Below, one piece after another: positions 30,790 to 64,000 of a stretch of DNA of 64,000 bases (its first letter is position 1; each line of letters opens with the position of its first letter). The position numbers and the translations under genes were made by a program. Origin of the DNA: Candidatus Altimarinota bacterium (GTDB lineage: Bacteria > Patescibacteriota > Gracilibacteria > UM-FILTER-43-11). The notes beneath the pieces are model-generated. The model worked only from the letters and a program-made list of their open reading frames with translations, did not search any database and had not been told where the DNA came from. The DNA lies in contig JANQKP010000006.1 in NCBI GenBank assembly GCA_028281045.1, positions 62,001 to 126,000 of the forward strand, written 5' to 3'.

Positions 30790-30875
30790 TTCTTAGGTGA
30801 GTTACGATGGGAAAAGTCACCCCCTGTTTGACCAAAGAGATGACATGTTTTATTGAAGATAATTTCTTCACTTCA

Positions 30876-30904
30876 ATTCTATTGTTTTTAACAGTTTTTG
30901 ACAA
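30876..30904 (-). promoter_or_regulatory. dnaN promoter
   Basis: On the minus strand TTGTCA (30899-30904), a 17-nt spacer and TAGAAT (30876-30881) predict a start near 30869 and a leader of about 80 nt before the dnaN ATG. This is one of the longer leaders in the window. Confidence 0.7.
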
Positions 30905-31083
30905 CCCCATTTTCCCTATAAAAAGAGATAGTAAATATTATTTATATAAATAGTCGTAGTAAGGGGTTTACAAAGATTAATAAATCTAAAATAAACACAC
31001 TATTTCCAGTAGAAAGTAGTTATCAACAGTTTCGAATGAATTGTTGATAAGTTGTTAATAAGTCCCAAAACTTCAAATAGGTT
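30905..31083. other. Putative oriC-like AT-rich region with DnaA-box-like 9-mers
   Basis: No gene is seen here. At its right end lie TTATCAACA on plus (31020-31028), TTATCAACA on minus (31042-31050) and TTATTAACA on minus (31053-31061). The first two differ at one base from the E. coli DnaA box TTATCCACA. To the left is an AT-rich stretch (about 30920-31015) that could unwind. Adjacency to dnaN supports an origin. Against it, dnaA is absent and no strand-skew computation was possible here. Confidence 0.45.
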
Positions 31084-31854
31084 TTATTTGATCTTAATTG
31101 TCCCCAGTGGGGTTTCGAACATATTAGGATCGTTCACATCACACCATGAATGCGGAGGATTCCCCAGCGCATGCATAGGATAGCGTGAATCAAATATAAG
31201 GATACGATCATATTCAATTTGCTGATCCCATTCCTGTTCCCACTTAGCATTTTTTGGAATGCGCCCCATAAATGTATCTATAAACTTACAAAAGTTTATG
31301 GCCCCAAGCTGATCTAAAATACTATTAAACATGTGCTTGGTCAGTAGACCAAAGGGGGTTGCATTAACAGCTCTACCATCAACACTGTATAAAGCCTCAT
31401 GACCTAAAATAAGATCAATTTGCTGCCTTGAAACTCGAAGGCCGTCGTTCAAATATTCATCGTCAAACAAGTTTTCATCTCCCAATATATCAGCTACATG
31501 TCTTCTACCCAGTAAAACGGTATTAATACTGCGAGAAACTCCTGCCGAAGCCATCAAGGCAAAGGCAGCGCAGTCTTCATCTTCATGCGTGTGGGCGGCT
31601 TTAGCCCTTGGATTATTCACCATCCATCTTTTGAATTTTTTGTCTAAATCACTTCTAGGGTCAACGACCATATTAAGAAAACCAAAGGTAGATAAAGCCT
31701 CCCTCGCTTCGCTGTTATTTGCATCAAATAAAATACTCTCTGCTTCGTCAGCTTGCATGATAGCTCCATCATTTACCCTAAAACCAAAATCCCGGTATCT
31801 AGAATCCTTACCGCCATCAAAATTTTCGATGATTGGAGAGCCCTTAATACTCAT
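31084..31854 (-). CDS. Unknown protein, paralogue A of a tandem pair
   Basis: This 256-residue soluble protein is clearly related to its upstream neighbour (31857-32666). Shared features are the start GSPIIENFDGGKDS, an HTHEDED segment (about 92-98), LLGRRHVA, an ILDQLGAINFCKF helix and a C-terminal PMHALGNPP. The conserved His-x-His, Asp and distal His could be metal ligands, as in cupin or Fe(II)/oxoglutarate folds, but I cannot assign a family. It is 2 nt downstream of the paralogue, in an operon with the SLH-sortase. It is the gene nearest the putative origin. Confidence 0.75.
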   Translation of the reverse strand: MSIKGSPIIENFDGGKDSRYRDFGFRVNDGAIMQADEAESILFDANNSEAREALSTFGFLNMVVDPRSDLDKKFKRWMVNNPRAKAAHTHEDEDCAAFALMASAGVSRSINTVLLGRRHVADILGDENLFDDEYLNDGLRVSRQQIDLILGHEALYSVDGRAVNATPFGLLTKHMFNSILDQLGAINFCKFIDTFMGRIPKNAKWEQEWDQQIEYDRILIFDSRYPMHALGNPPHSWCDVNDPNMFETPLGTIKIK

Positions 31855-31856
31855 AT

Positions 31857-32666
31857 TTATAGGTTAGCACTAGTATTTATTCTTGGTTTTTCTCTGCAAT
31901 ACATAGGAATAATCGTACTAATTTCTTTGTAGACCCATGGGTAACTTTCCGGTGGATTTCCTAGTGCATGCATAGGAGTATTAGCATCGAAAACAACAAT
32001 TTTTGAAAAATCATCTTCTTCGTCCCACGGCACTTCTAAATAACCATCCTCAGGCAACTCCGCCTGGAAGTCCGCAAGCCAATGGCAAAAATTGCGAGCT
32101 CCCATGGTTCCTAAAATGGTATCAAAAGCGTGTTCAATCACAACCTCAGGAGAGTCTTCGGTGTATTTTTCATCATCATAAAGTTCCCCTGTTTCCAGAA
32201 GCTGCATCAGAGCAGCTCTTTTTTTCTTGTATTCAGCACGCGAAACGCCCCACACCCTAGATCTTAAGGTTTGCTTTGGGTAAGTTTTTGCGAGTGTCGC
32301 AGCTACGGCTCTACGCCCAAAGAATAAGGTGGGCGCCAACCTAGTTTTTCCGGCCTCCAAATAAAAGGCCATAAAATCAAAATGATTATGAGCATGAGGA
32401 ATTCTAGCTTCTGGATCCTTAGAATAACAAGGCGCAAAACGATCGCCAAAGAAATCGAAATCACCCTCGTCTTCATTCATAGCCATGGTAATCACTCCAT
32501 ATTTTTTAAGGGTCTCTTTTAAATCAGAAAACTCAGAACCAAATAAAATAGAGTTCGCTGTGTCTGTAGATACAGGCTCATTATTTTCCACCATAAAACC
32601 AAACTCATTAAAATAAGAGTCTTGTCCAGAGTCGAAGTCGGGGATGAGGGGAGAGCCGTTTAGCAT
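31857..32666 (-). CDS. Unknown protein, paralogue B of a tandem pair
   Basis: This 269-residue protein parallels the 31084 gene along its length. The start GSPLIPDFDSGQDS, HAHNHFD (about 92-98), FFGRRAVA, ILGTMGARNFCHW and PMHALGNPPES match the paralogue block by block. Only H1, H3 and D7 of the His-rich block are common to both. The C-terminal ~25 residues are longer here. Its ATG overlaps the sortase stop by 1 nt (TAATG), implying coupled translation after the SLH-sortase. Function unknown; a metal-dependent enzyme is a guess. Confidence 0.75.
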   Translation of the reverse strand: MLNGSPLIPDFDSGQDSYFNEFGFMVENNEPVSTDTANSILFGSEFSDLKETLKKYGVITMAMNEDEGDFDFFGDRFAPCYSKDPEARIPHAHNHFDFMAFYLEAGKTRLAPTLFFGRRAVAATLAKTYPKQTLRSRVWGVSRAEYKKKRAALMQLLETGELYDDEKYTEDSPEVVIEHAFDTILGTMGARNFCHWLADFQAELPEDGYLEVPWDEEDDFSKIVVFDANTPMHALGNPPESYPWVYKEISTIIPMYCREKPRINTSANL

Positions 32667-33769
32667 TAGAATACAGGGTCAGCGTGAATCACATAACGAT
32701 GTGAAATACTATCTGGTGGCCAGCAAGTATACATGGCCAGTTCTTCACGTCCATAGTCTTCCATCACAATATAATCTTGTTCTTGAGGAATAATTTGTCT
32801 GTTCGCTACGCGATACGCGTGAGCCTTTTCACGATAGTTGATATAAATCATGTCCCCATCTTGCAACTGGTCGATTTGTCTAAGCACCACTTTAAATGGC
32901 GACTGATCCCAGGCATAAGCACTACTATGAGCAAAAAGAACAAACTTCTTACCGTGTCCTGGCCCTGCTAAATAATGACCAAAAGGTACACGACGAAGTA
33001 GCTCAAGAGCAGAAGCACCATCGTATGGATCTGCAAATTCAATTGAATGATCAACAATTCCAAGGCGTGGAATTGTAATACGATATTCATTTGAAGTGGC
33101 TACTTCTGTTTCAATAAAAGCTTTTCCACCGCGGCTTCTTACAATTTCAGCGCGATAAACAAGCTCCGCAAATTCTCCACGAGTAATGGCTTGTCCTGGG
33201 TGGTAAAACTTACGGTTGTTAATCATGTTACGGCTCGCCGCATAGGTGAAATATCTAGCAAACCAATCATTTGCGTTCACATAGTGATACTGATTAGGTC
33301 TGAAGATAATACGAGAATAATCTAGGCCGTAAGCTTCAATCACCATTTTAAGGGCTTCGGCAAAATTCACTGTTCCATCAGGATGGAAAAGGCCATCGTC
33401 GTATCCAGCCACAACACCTTTGCTGTGCGCCAGGTCTACGTATGGAGCAAACCAAATATCCACAGGAACATCTGCAAAATCAGCATACCAATGGCTATTG
33501 TCTTTATGATAATTCAAAGTAGAACCCACCTCATGTTTACGAGTGGCCTCCATTAAAACTTTCACCATTTCCGCCCGGTTAATATGACCGCTTGGGCTAA
33601 ACCCACCGGTTTCATAACCCTTTAAAATGCCACGGCTGCTTAAATTAGAAACAGCAGTGTAATGCTTGTGGTTACTAGGTAAATCTATGAACGATTGAGC
33701 ATGGGTCATTCCAGGCATAAGAAGCCCAATCATTAAAGCGCCGATGATAAAAGAATAAAGCTTTTTCAT
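32666..33769 (-). CDS. S-layer-homology domain protein fused to a C-terminal sortase
   Basis: A signal peptide (1-24, cleavage near THAQ) is followed by three SLH-type repeats (about 27-75, 93-150 and 155-210; for example WFAPYVDLAHSKGVVAGY and GGFSPSGHINRAEMVKVL). A sortase domain covers about 218-367. All three sortase catalytic residues fit: H281 in LFAHSSAY, C349 in MYTCWPP, and R358 in SHRYVI. The TxTC-type motif resembles class D/E sortases. Sortases normally have a membrane anchor; here SLH domains would tether the enzyme to the wall. Upstream gene 33770 abuts its ATG, and the 31857 gene overlaps its stop. Confidence 0.9.
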   Translation of the reverse strand: MKKLYSFIIGALMIGLLMPGMTHAQSFIDLPSNHKHYTAVSNLSSRGILKGYETGGFSPSGHINRAEMVKVLMEATRKHEVGSTLNYHKDNSHWYADFADVPVDIWFAPYVDLAHSKGVVAGYDDGLFHPDGTVNFAEALKMVIEAYGLDYSRIIFRPNQYHYVNANDWFARYFTYAASRNMINNRKFYHPGQAITRGEFAELVYRAEIVRSRGGKAFIETEVATSNEYRITIPRLGIVDHSIEFADPYDGASALELLRRVPFGHYLAGPGHGKKFVLFAHSSAYAWDQSPFKVVLRQIDQLQDGDMIYINYREKAHAYRVANRQIIPQEQDYIVMEDYGREELAMYTCWPPDSISHRYVIHADPVF

Positions 33770-36315: not shown

Positions 36316-37161
36316 TTAAAAAATCTTAAATAGCACAGCACCCTCTTCAGAGGTGCTGTGTGTTTTTAAATGCGACACTTTGTCCATAACTTCTTCGTGA
36401 GGGTGCCCAAAGTGATTATCGTGGCCTGCAGAAATAACCCCAACCTCGGGATTCACCGCTTTTAAGAAAACATCTATCGTAGAGCTACTAGACCCATGGT
36501 GCCCTAGTTTTAATATATTGGCAGATAAGTCTTGCCCAGAAAGTACTAGCTCACGCTCCTGATCTGCTTCCGCATCTCCAGAAAGCATGGCAACAGCTTT
36601 GCCATTATGAATAAGCCGCAGGGTTATAGAGGTATCGTTTTTGTTTTTAACATCTTGTCCCAAAAGAGAAACATCGGCGTAAGGGTATAGAATATCCAAA
36701 TAGGTTTCTTTTCCTATTTGGAGATCCTCATCATGTCTTGGATAAACAATAGGAATATTCTGCCTTTTAATTTCATCTAAAAAGGCTAAGTAAAATTTAT
36801 CTGAATTTGCTATACCTGTTAGCATTACCTGTTTTATCTTATATTTTCCTAGAACCTCTAATACGCCCACATAATGATCCCTATCTGGATGTGTCAGAAT
36901 AAATAGGTCTATTTCTTTCTCAAAGAAGGGTAGGGCTTTTCCAAGTTCTTCCACTACTTTCGTATCTAGCCCCGCATCTATGAGTATATTTTTGTGCTCC
37001 GGAGTACGAATTAAAATGCTGTCACCTTGTCCAATATCTAAAAAGATAAGCTCTGTTTTTTGGCTTATTAAAGGCAAAACAGACCATAGGGTTAGTATGA
37101 CCAACATTGTCAAAAATAAATGGGAGAGCGCCCACTGTTTTTTAGAAAGCACAGGCGCCAT
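36316..37161 (-). CDS. ComEC/Rec2-like MBL-fold hydrolase, membrane-anchored
   Basis: This 281-residue protein has one N-terminal membrane helix (about 12-32). The MBL domain follows, beginning LIFLDIGQGDSILI (about 38-51). The metal-binding motif is THPDRDHYVG (about 90-99), with further ligands in LSGDAEADQE, LKLGHHGSSSS and SAGHDNHFGHP. This is the C-terminal domain arrangement of ComEC, which acts in DNA uptake, but the ten-helix channel domain is missing. It could be a nuclease or phosphodiesterase at the outer membrane face. The convergent lipoprotein terminator lies inside its last codons. Confidence 0.86.
   Translation of the reverse strand: MAPVLSKKQWALSHLFLTMLVILTLWSVLPLISQKTELIFLDIGQGDSILIRTPEHKNILIDAGLDTKVVEELGKALPFFEKEIDLFILTHPDRDHYVGVLEVLGKYKIKQVMLTGIANSDKFYLAFLDEIKRQNIPIVYPRHDEDLQIGKETYLDILYPYADVSLLGQDVKNKNDTSITLRLIHNGKAVAMLSGDAEADQERELVLSGQDLSANILKLGHHGSSSSTIDVFLKAVNPEVGVISAGHDNHFGHPHEEVMDKVSHLKTHSTSEEGAVLFKIF
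36333..36366 (+). terminator. Intrinsic terminator inside a convergent coding region
   Basis: CACAGCACC (36334-36342) pairs perfectly with GGTGCTGTG (36352-36360) around a 9-nt loop, and TGTTTTT follows. It ends the plus-strand lipoprotein gene, yet its bases also encode the last residues of the minus-strand ComEC-like protein. Confidence 0.85.
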
Positions 37162-56841: not shown

Positions 56842-58113
56842 ATGAACACGAAAAAAAGTTTAATTACATTAATCATCGCTGCCGTAATGGCTAGCCCACT
56901 TGCTGCTCTTGCTGGAGGAATTCCAGAGAGTGTAACAGGTCTTGCTGCTACTGCTGCAAGCGGTGACACAATTAACCTAACTTGGGACAACGCCAAAGAT
57001 GAAGATGGTGACCCTGTGGCCAACTACCGCGTTTATTACAGTGTAAATTCTGTATTTGAAGCCGGTGAAGGTGAATACGATGTTGAAATCGATACCACAG
57101 ATAACACTAATTCATATGCGGTTGAAAACCTTGAAGCAGAGACCACTTATTACTTCTCTGTAACAGCGTTCTCTACCGATGGAATTGAATCTGAAGAATA
57201 CAGCTTCGAAGCTAGCGCAGAAACTCTTTCTGCTGTTATTGAAGAAGTTGTGGAGGAAGAAGCTCCAGCAGAAGAACAACCTGCTGAAGAAGGAGAAGAT
57301 GTTACTTCTCCAACAGTAGAATCTGCTTCTGCTCCAGATAATAAAACCGTTAAAATCGTGTTCTCTGAAGCTGTTAAACTCCCTGAAATTCTAGCGGAAG
57401 CTAGCTTCGGAATTGTAGAGCAAATCAATAGTAACAATACACTTGAAGTAGTGGCTGCATCACTAGATGCAGAAGATACTGAAGGACGTACTGTAGCTCT
57501 TGAAACTGCAGAACAAACAGCGAATGTAAACTACATTGTGACCGCAGGCGTTGCGGTTCAAGATAACGCTGGAAACCCTATTGTTTCTGGAAACACAGAC
57601 TCTGCTCTTTTCCTTGGTTCTAGCATTGCTCCTACTGTAGAAGAAGTAGTTGAGGAGCCAGTAGAAGAACCAGTGGCTGAAGAAACTCCAGAACCAGAAC
57701 TATTTGAAGAGCTTGAACCTGAAGTAGATGTTACCGCTCCAGAAGACGTAACTAATCTAGTGGCTTCATTTAAAGAGCAACTAGATAGCTTCTACACAGT
57801 AATGCTTTCTTGGACGCCTTCTGTAAATACCGCTCAAGATCTAGTAGATCAGATTCTATACATGTCTACAGATCGTGGTGCTTCTTACGACTCTGGTAAA
57901 TCTCTGGGAGTGCTAGCGAGTGAAACAGAAGTAAGCAATCTAGAAGGAGGTAAAGAATACACCTTCAAAGTAACGACTAAAGATGACTCTGGAAACGAGT
58001 CTGTAGGTGCTATTCGCGCCATTCGTCTTCCGTCTACGGGAGCTGGAGCAGCTGCTCTAATGCTTATGTCTGCAGGTGCTGCTCACCTTGGACTAAGACG
58101 CAAAGAAAAATAA
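56842..58113 (+). CDS. Secreted fibronectin-type-III protein with C-terminal LPXTG sorting signal
   Basis: A signal peptide (1-24, cleavage near LAALAG) precedes an FnIII domain (about 28-128, with INLTWDNA and ETTYYFSVTAFS). An acidic Glu/Pro linker, an Ig-like domain (about 150-265), another acidic linker and a second FnIII domain (about 295-390, with TVMLSWTPS and KEYTFKVTTKDD) follow. The C-terminus has LPSTG, a hydrophobic helix and RRKEK: a classic sortase signal. The SLH-sortase at 32666 is a candidate enzyme. It is likely anchored to the wall. Its own promoter and terminator make it monocistronic. Confidence 0.9.
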   Translation: MNTKKSLITLIIAAVMASPLAALAGGIPESVTGLAATAASGDTINLTWDNAKDEDGDPVANYRVYYSVNSVFEAGEGEYDVEIDTTDNTNSYAVENLEAETTYYFSVTAFSTDGIESEEYSFEASAETLSAVIEEVVEEEAPAEEQPAEEGEDVTSPTVESASAPDNKTVKIVFSEAVKLPEILAEASFGIVEQINSNNTLEVVAASLDAEDTEGRTVALETAEQTANVNYIVTAGVAVQDNAGNPIVSGNTDSALFLGSSIAPTVEEVVEEPVEEPVAEETPEPELFEELEPEVDVTAPEDVTNLVASFKEQLDSFYTVMLSWTPSVNTAQDLVDQILYMSTDRGASYDSGKSLGVLASETEVSNLEGGKEYTFKVTTKDDSGNESVGAIRAIRLPSTGAGAAALMLMSAGAAHLGLRRKEK

Positions 58114-61806: not shown

Positions 61807-62261
61807 GATTGTCTAAAAATTGTGTCCAACAATGACAATCTGCCCACTATAGAAAAAGCCTCCAGCTGACATGGATTTCCGCTCAAAAATAATTGATGCG
61901 GAAAAAAAATTTTAATATCCATGCCATCTGCGTCTGTGCGTGCAAAAATATTTGACCCCACGACTTAGCTCTAAAGATCTAGATCGTGTGATCAATCCGG
62001 TCACAATTGCTCATTAACAACATCGGGGTAGACAAGAGGACATGTCTGTCTACCAAACAGAATAGTCTCCTACTGGGAGACAGTCTGGTGAAAATCCAGA
62101 CACACTTATTTCATATAGGTAGGCAAGTTCATAAACAGCCGAACTCTGTGAAGCTTAGGGCGGAGGTGGTACCACACCGACCTTTAAGCCGACCATTGCG
62201 GCAAATAATAATATTTATAAGAACGAGCCGAATATATTATTTATTAACCCATATATTTATT
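61807..62261 (+). ncRNA. Long structured 5' leader of the SLH gene, T-box-like elements
   Basis: Five perfect or near-perfect hairpins are visible: GATTGTC/GACAATC with ATTGT/ACAAT at 61807-61840; CATGGAT-TTCCGC with its mate at 61870-61923; an 8-bp stem at 62027-62054; GTCTCC/GGAGAC at 62065-62081; and GTCTGG/CCAGAC at 62083-62101 with loop TGAAAAT. GGAGGTGGTACCACACC follows at about 62163-62179, close to the T-box antiterminator consensus, with GGTGAAAATCC upstream resembling the post-Stem-I element. I cannot identify a specifier loop. No ORF is convincing. Confidence 0.5.
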
Positions 62262-64000
62262 ATGGATATCTCTTTGAAAATTAAGAGAGTAATTGCTTCT
62301 GTGAGCGCGTTTGCACTTCTTGTTGCTTACACTCCACTAGCTCTTGCTCAAACGTTCAACGATGTACCATCTGATGCATGGTTCTTCGATTACGTTGAAC
62401 AAGGAGTTGATCAAGGGATTTTCGATTCATCTGACAATTTCCGTCCAGGTGACGCACTTAACCGTGCTGAACTAGTTAAGATTGTAGTTACTGCAATCGA
62501 CGGTCTTGCTGGATACGAAGCTCCTGCTACTCCAACCTTTGACGATGTTCCTACAGATGCATGGTTCTACGACTACGTAGAAGCTGCTGTAGCTGAAGGA
62601 ATCGTTTCTGGTTACACTGATGCGAACGGTAACCTTACCGGTCAATTCGGTCCTGGTGACACGGTTAACCGTGCTGCCGCTACTAAGATCCTTGTAAACG
62701 CTTTCGCGATTGCTACTGATCTTAACCCAGGAAACACCTTTGGTGATGTTTCTTCTGGTGACTGGTTCCACGACTTCGTGGTTACTGCGTACAACCAATC
62801 TGTACTAGATGGTTACGATAACGGTAACTTCGGTCCTGCTGATCCTGTTACTCGTGCACAAGTTGCAAAACTTACTCAAACTGCACAAAACCCAGTTGAA
62901 CGTGTGGTTGCTTCTGACGATGACGACGAACCAGTTGTTTCATCTTCTGACGGTGACCTAGAAGTGTCTCTAAACGATGACACTGCTGCTTCTGCAACAG
63001 TTCCTCGTTCTGGACACGCGATCGACCTTATCTCTATCGACCTTACTGCAGCTGACGACGATGTTGTTCTTAACAACCTAGTTGTTACTCGTGGTGGTGT
63101 AGGGGTAGCTTCTGACTGGGAAAACCTATACATCTACGACGGTACTGAGCGTCTTACTACTGGACGTTCAATCAACAGTGATACCAACGTAGCTACTTTC
63201 GCTATCAACGTTGAAATTGATGCTGGTACTACTAAATCACTACGTGTTGTAGGTGACATGGCGTCTACTGCTACAGCGACTAACCAACATTACTTCTACG
63301 TAGCTTCAGCTTCTGACGTTTCTTCAAACGCTCAAGCTGTTGTTGGTGACTTCCCTGTAACTGGTAACACCTTCACTACTGGTCAACAAACAGTAACTTC
63401 TCTTACTGTTGCTACCGGTACTCAGCCTGCTAACCCACAAGTTGGAGAGCAAGGTGCTGAAATCGCTGCAGTTAAAATGACTGCTGGAGCTGAAAATGAC
63501 ATCGCTCTACACCAAATCACTCTTACTCAAAACGAATCACTTTCTGTTTCTAATCTAGAAAACCTAGAACTAATTGTAGCTGGTGAAACTGTTGCGACTG
63601 CTGATGGATTCGGTGATTCAGAACGTGTTACTTTCGTTCTAGACACTCCATACATCATTCCTGAAGGACAAATCAAAAACTTCTTCGTGAATGCTGACAT
63701 CGTTGGAGGTCGCCCAGGTGATGATCAAATCGAACTTTACCTTGATGAAGACAGTGATGTAATCGCTATCGATCAACAATACGGTTTCGGTGCTTCAATC
63801 ACTAACAACCTAACCACTGCTCTAGTAACTGAACTTACTCTTGAAGGTGGTGACATTACTATTACTGATAACGGTCCTGCTGCAACTCAAATTGCACAGA
63901 ACGACGACAATGTGCCTCTATTTGACATCACTGTTGTTTCTGACCGTCACGTTCTAGTTAAAGAAATGGATCTTACTGCTCGTATTGGTATCGGAGGAGA
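62262..64000 (+). CDS. Large S-layer-homology surface protein (N-terminal part)
   Basis: At least 579 residues are encoded, running off the right edge. A signal peptide (1-30, cleavage near ALAQ) precedes three SLH domains (about 32-84, 87-145 and 148-205; for example TFNDVPSDAWFFDYVEQG). A poly-Asp linker follows, then beta-rich repeats with TTKSLRVVGDM-like strands. This is the layout of an S-layer protein. Codons are strongly biased to CGT, AAC, ATC, GGT and TCT, unlike most genes here, pointing to very high expression. Long structured leader upstream. Probably the main S-layer subunit. Confidence 0.93.
   Translation, partial: MDISLKIKRVIASVSAFALLVAYTPLALAQTFNDVPSDAWFFDYVEQGVDQGIFDSSDNFRPGDALNRAELVKIVVTAIDGLAGYEAPATPTFDDVPTDAWFYDYVEAAVAEGIVSGYTDANGNLTGQFGPGDTVNRAAATKILVNAFAIATDLNPGNTFGDVSSGDWFHDFVVTAYNQSVLDGYDNGNFGPADPVTRAQVAKLTQTAQNPVERVVASDDDDEPVVSSSDGDLEVSLNDDTAASATVPRSGHAIDLISIDLTAADDDVVLNNLVVTRGGVGVASDWENLYIYDGTERLTTGRSINSDTNVATFAINVEIDAGTTKSLRVVGDMASTATATNQHYFYVASASDVSSNAQAVVGDFPVTGNTFTTGQQTVTSLTVATGTQPANPQVGEQGAEIAAVKMTAGAENDIALHQITLTQNESLSVSNLENLELIVAGETVATADGFGDSERVTFVLDTPYIIPEGQIKNFFVNADIVGGRPGDDQIELYLDEDSDVIAIDQQYGFGASITNNLTTALVTELTLEGGDITITDNGPAATQIAQNDDNVPLFDITVVSDRHVLVKEMDLTARIGIGG

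Follow-up and report, generated by a model that had tools for sequence, protein, structure and literature searches.

Introduction

Standard sortases carry an N-terminal signal anchor, and the field generally assumes that the enzyme sits in the membrane and encounters its secreted substrates at the translocon. The usual ligand of SLH domains is a pyruvylated wall polymer, and in Firmicutes the SLH ligand is made by CsaB. A sortase family was noted to be enriched in CPR (PMC6744442), and both S-layer genes and "a sortase A" were reported for Peribacteria, without connecting them (PMC4736985). Here, we analyzed a protein of a Candidatus Altimarinota bacterium that combines three SLH repeats with a sortase domain (SLH-sortase) and is encoded in a stretch of 64,000 nucleotides (the window). 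A preliminary description of the window, made from the sequence alone, did not recognize this fusion as a standard sortase architecture. In agreement, no account of a sortase anchored by SLH domains was found in the literature, mostly open-access, and an earlier listing of the architecture is possible.

Results

Gene structure and domain assignment

The SLH-sortase gene (367 aa) occupies positions 32666..33769, as first described, and lies on the minus strand, a detail missing from that description, with its ATG at 33769. It is supported by the open reading frame, Pfam matches to three SLH repeats and Sortase, an AlphaFold2 model and orthologues. The ATG immediately follows the stop codon of an upstream 140-aa gene, and the stop codon shares one base with the start of the next gene. 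From its N-terminus, the protein consists of a signal peptide and an SLH unit of three repeats, which a short linker joins to a complete sortase domain. The predicted signal peptide (residues 1-24, MKKLYSFIIGALMIGLLMPGMTHA; 33698..33769, minus) would be cleaved before a Gln (…MTHA/Q). SLH repeat 1 (33566..33685, minus) contains an INRAE motif, in which R65 and E67 were invariant in 25 orthologues, repeat 2 (33353..33460, minus) a VNFAE motif and repeat 3 (33167..33271, minus) an ITRGE motif with an invariant R197; all were assigned by a Pfam search of the genome, alignment and motif positions. The sortase domain (32672..33079, minus) was assigned by PF04203 and by Foldseek matches to sortases A/C/D/E.

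Pfam detected SLH in three stretches (E=6.8e-24, 84 bits vs a cut-off of 20.8) and Sortase PF04203 at residues 232-366 (E=2.3e-13, 50.4 bits vs a cut-off of 26.6). Both families were matched by 25/25 aligned members, which excludes chance. The predicted catalytic residues, His281 (FAHSSAYAWD; 32927..32929, minus), Cys349 (YTCWPPD; 32723..32725, minus) and Arg358 (32696..32698, minus), were unchanged across 25 aligned orthologues with identity down to 24%, and fell on the GH, TC and R catalytic motifs in a profile alignment with solved sortases. In an AlphaFold2 model built on the 25 orthologues (mean pLDDT 89.6, pTM 0.85), the predicted fold was a sortase fold: the Foldseek matches in PDB included SrtA/C/D/E (E down to 4e-9), along with the SLH structures of Sap (3pyw) and of SpaA with pyruvylated ligand (7sv3/7sv4). 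The order of signal peptide, three SLH repeats and sortase triad first read from the sequence was thus confirmed by profile and structure searches. The refuting outcomes set out in that description did not materialize, as the HMM search did hit the sortase family and the model had a sortase fold.

None of the NCBIfam sortase class models passed its curated cut-off: class D scored best (39.9 bits vs 165), followed by class C (35.8 vs 160) and class E (25.5 vs 160), and sortase_fam scored 34.6 vs 39.35. The class C lid, DP(F/W/Y) before the first strand, was not found; the sole DPY of the protein (residues 247-249) lies past the first two strands, 34 residues N-terminal of His281. The family has its own conserved signatures, HSSGYxWD and YTCWPPD, and conservation is higher in the sortase domain than over the whole protein (59% vs 41% mean column identity).

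A predicted signal peptide in place of the membrane anchor

In 76 of the 79 full-length family members, the N-terminus was hydrophobic and led into an AxA-type signal-peptidase site. A further segment above a lenient hydropathy threshold occurred in just three of these 79, in line with the earlier statement that no membrane helix follows the signal. The N-terminal transmembrane anchor of membrane-anchored sortases was therefore not found, and a cleavable-type signal peptide occupies its place. A membrane helix was present in 48 of the 51 sequences without an SLH call (which include a truncated SLH-type fragment, L149), mostly behind a cytoplasmic tail. The second sortase of the genome (258 aa; G000:C2:166282-166710, L011 8277-9050) is also of the ordinary membrane kind. 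Because these other sortases have the usual N-terminal anchor, the replacement proposed in the preliminary description is a real contrast.

Distribution and origin of SLH-sortases

We searched 98 related genomes. In the window's own family (f1), full-length orthologues, 44-50% identical, were present in 15 of the 18 genomes, the source genome counted; the three lacking one were only 81-89% complete. Family f19 had one SLH-sortase (34% identical), and all 11 genomes of family f5 had SLH-sortases of 380-445 aa. Orthologues sharing this architecture recur throughout Peribacteria. The full single protein used as a query gave no related loci, whereas a sortase-domain profile (A2) did, yielding 83 confirmed loci over 84,980 species. 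Among the matches listed (80 of the 83 loci), nearly all were labelled Ca. Peregrinibacteria or Peribacteria (Ca. Peregrinibacteriota), which are tiny bacteria not yet in culture. A contig labelled Kiritimatiellales (L161) bears a Peribacteria-type SLH-sortase and is probably a mis-binned MAG contig. When plasmids were searched for such fusions from Firmicutes, only SLH proteins were detected, and none of them covered 80% of the query.

Members of f1 and f5 were well separated by the profile score: in 380 genomes of the phylum they scored 183-212 bits, and every other sortase at most 113. SLH repeats were present in 81/81 intact members vs 0/50 other CPR sortases, and in the tree all SLH-sortases fell on one side of a branch with support 100/99. 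What had been noticed in a single protein is therefore a conserved, lineage-specific family and not a lone oddity, and SLH and sortase were fused in one event; the fusion has since been retained across the candidate phylum, alongside an ordinary membrane sortase.

UGA is read as glycine in Gracilibacteria/Absconditabacteria; sortase genes with in-frame TGA, which fit this reading, were observed in three genomes of family f22 (G076, G093 and G131).

Sorting-signal proteins

To find sorting signals, defined as a motif, a hydrophobic stretch and a basic tail, we scanned the tails of ORFs directly. Exactly two ORFs with such signals were found in 1.19 Mb of the 1.21-Mb assembly (98.6%), and three scrambled-motif controls gave zero matches in the same scan. 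The TIGR01167 model missed one tail (LPSTG) and scored the other (LAATG) below its cut-off. One ORF, found by the scan and supported by orthologues, encodes a secreted fibronectin-III protein with an LPSTG signal (56842..58113, plus; motif 58027-58041). The other, also from the scan, is a secreted CnaB-fold protein of 231 aa with an LAATG signal (G000:C9:93473-94165, L210 3474-4166). Each has conserved counterparts in the family, LP[QSK]TG proteins for the first and LA[AVQE]TG proteins for the second.

The LAXTG protein was kept in 12 of the 18 family genomes and was found only in f1. In its predicted layout, a signal peptide precedes one CnaB-like domain, which is followed by a disordered low-complexity linker and the sorting tail; its best structural matches were pilins (Foldseek). 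The LPXTG protein, with intact LP[QEKA]TG tails, also occurred in families having only membrane-type sortases. These distributions suggest, with moderate confidence, that the LAXTG CnaB-fold protein is the favored client of SLH-sortase in the window's family, and that the membrane sortase more probably handles the LPXTG fibronectin-III protein. However, phylogeny confounds the client distribution. Peribacteria have SLH-sortase but lacked the LAXTG protein, apart from a single weak match to the tail only, and carry other signals (genome G059 was scanned over ~65%); Peribacteria must use other clients.

A stand-alone metallo-beta-lactamase resembling the ComEC C-terminus (36316-37161 in the window, minus, and L330-L342) was found beside the LPXTG fibronectin-III gene in many families of the class.

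SLH ligand and other SLH proteins

A gene for a CsaB-like pyruvyl transferase is present in the genome (PF04230, 129.8 bits, above cut-off); the TIGR03609 CsaB score of its product, 186.5 bits, is slightly below the cut-off of 213.1. A pyruvylated wall polymer is therefore a plausible SLH ligand in this organism. SLH repeats were also fused to an S41/CtpB-like peptidase (L011 1718-3460), a thioredoxin-like domain (L200 2203-3231), RlpA-like plus CAP domains (L199 2503-5361) and a CAP domain (L205 1936-2967). With SLH joined to this range of exported enzyme domains, SLH tethering of enzymes is, judged from the gene content, a general habit of this organism. A large SLH protein of ~1500 aa begins at 62007-64000 of the window on the plus strand and extends beyond it (L206 4008-8522).

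Neighboring DNA

We considered an operon of SLH-sortase with the genes at 31857-32666 and 31084-31854 and rejected it, since relatives have different upstream neighbors and a search of the family gave no homologues of the gene at 31857-32666. These two minus-strand genes lie in the same tight gene string and encode paralogous soluble proteins (35% identical), a third copy of which is located at C4:201399. They had no Pfam or PDB match and are apparently missing from the rest of the family. Between SLH-sortase and dnaN, an AT-rich non-coding gap (30790-31083 in the window; L112-L125) is conserved across the family. In relatives it has 24-34% GC, is mostly 450-700 bp long and contains several DnaA-box-like 9-mers; this gap is possibly a replication origin.

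Discussion

The reading that we favor, and consider fairly probable, is that of a sortase tethered to wall polymer, with the LAXTG CnaB-fold protein as its likeliest client in the window's family. We infer wall-polymer attachment, catalytic activity, action within the S-layer, client choice and the nucleophile as follows. SLH-sortase would be exported by its Sec signal peptide and cut by signal peptidase I, after which the SLH trimer would bind pyruvylated wall polymer made with the CsaB-like enzyme. Cys349 would then attack the T-G bond of an LPXTG/LAXTG-type signal in a secreted protein whose C-terminal tail is still in the membrane, and the acyl enzyme would be handed to an amine, located either in the wall or on a different surface protein. 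The predicted topology suggests that the place from which SLH-sortase acts is probably the wall or S-layer and not the membrane. Against this tethered model, an enzyme free to leave the membrane must still reach a membrane-near motif.

A simpler topology would leave the N-terminal hydrophobic segment uncleaved, such that SLH-sortase is an ordinary membrane-anchored sortase and its SLH unit a stalk that also grips the wall. This would agree with the signal anchor of standard sortases and of nearly all sequences without SLH, but is improbable given the AxA-type site right behind the hydrophobic stretch in 76/79 members and the very short n-region. In the other sortases the helix lies deeper, after a long cytoplasmic tail, and the other SLH proteins of the genome have a similar signal-peptide appearance. 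It is very doubtful that the sortase domain is a degenerate structural remnant and SLH binding the function: the failure of all curated NCBIfam class models would fit such decay, yet the triad is invariant (25/25), both signatures are strongly conserved and the sortase domain is the better conserved part of the protein. Action in trans, in which SLH-sortase is released with wall polymer or reaches a neighboring cell and joins symbiont and host proteins, would suit the CPR lifestyle and the lack of a membrane anchor, but seems just as far-fetched considering that the genome itself encodes proteins with matching sorting signals.

The pairing of enzymes and clients is the point at which another reading deserves most weight. 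SLH-sortase might act on the LPXTG fibronectin-III protein, with the LAXTG protein left to the membrane sortase, or both enzymes might serve both. In seven family genomes the LPXTG gene is co-oriented with SLH-sortase at a distance of 2.4-8.3 kb, and the listed membrane sortases of these genomes are on other contigs. However, the LPXTG gene has the same ComEC-like neighbor in families whose sortases are all of the membrane type and which lack SLH-sortase. The linkage therefore predates SLH-sortase or is independent of it, and we rejected it as proof of pairing. Together with the restriction of the LAXTG protein to the family having SLH-sortase, this makes a reversed or shared pairing rather unlikely. 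A division of labor built on the favored pairing can be proposed tentatively: the membrane sortase would anchor the LPXTG fibronectin-III protein, and the SLH-held sortase would have an LAXTG CnaB (pilin-like) protein as its dedicated client, which it would process outside the plane of the membrane and might couple to the S-layer. If true, no earlier sortase would have been shown to operate from wall polymer and not from the membrane.

A conserved clade with a wall-polymer-binding module in place of the membrane anchor would represent another solution for sortases. SLH-sortase predicts that sorting can take place away from the membrane, with two named candidate client genes, and is one of few concrete handles on surface building in Peregrinibacteria and Peribacteria, on which the literature found offers no more than S-layer genes and "a sortase A" (PMC4736985).

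Compared to SLH proteins (PF00395) such as Bacillus anthracis Sap and Paenibacillus alvei SpaA, SLH-sortase has the same three SLH repeats with NRAE/TRGE motifs, a signal peptide and a CsaB-like enzyme in the genome; its predicted cargo, however, is a transpeptidase, whereas theirs is an S-layer lattice, autolysin or polysaccharide enzyme. With the pilin-type sortase systems of Gram-positive bacteria it shares a candidate client (LAXTG) that combines a CnaB-like domain with a low-complexity linker and a sorting signal. It differs from these systems in that the sortase is predicted to be wall-tethered, the client has one CnaB domain, and neither a pilin operon nor a class C lid was identified. 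Sortases of classes A-F (peptidase C60, PF04203) resemble SLH-sortase in their beta-barrel fold, His-Cys-Arg triad, export and sorting-signal proteins in the same genome, but have an N-terminal signal anchor where SLH-sortase has three SLH repeats behind a cleavable-type signal peptide; the HSSGYxWD and YTCWPP signatures are distinct, and no class cut-off was passed. The membrane sortase of the same genome belongs to the same catalytic domain family and shares the GHSSxYPWD and TC..R motifs, but has a cytoplasmic N-tail and a transmembrane helix, lacks SLH repeats and falls on the opposite side of the 100/99 branch.
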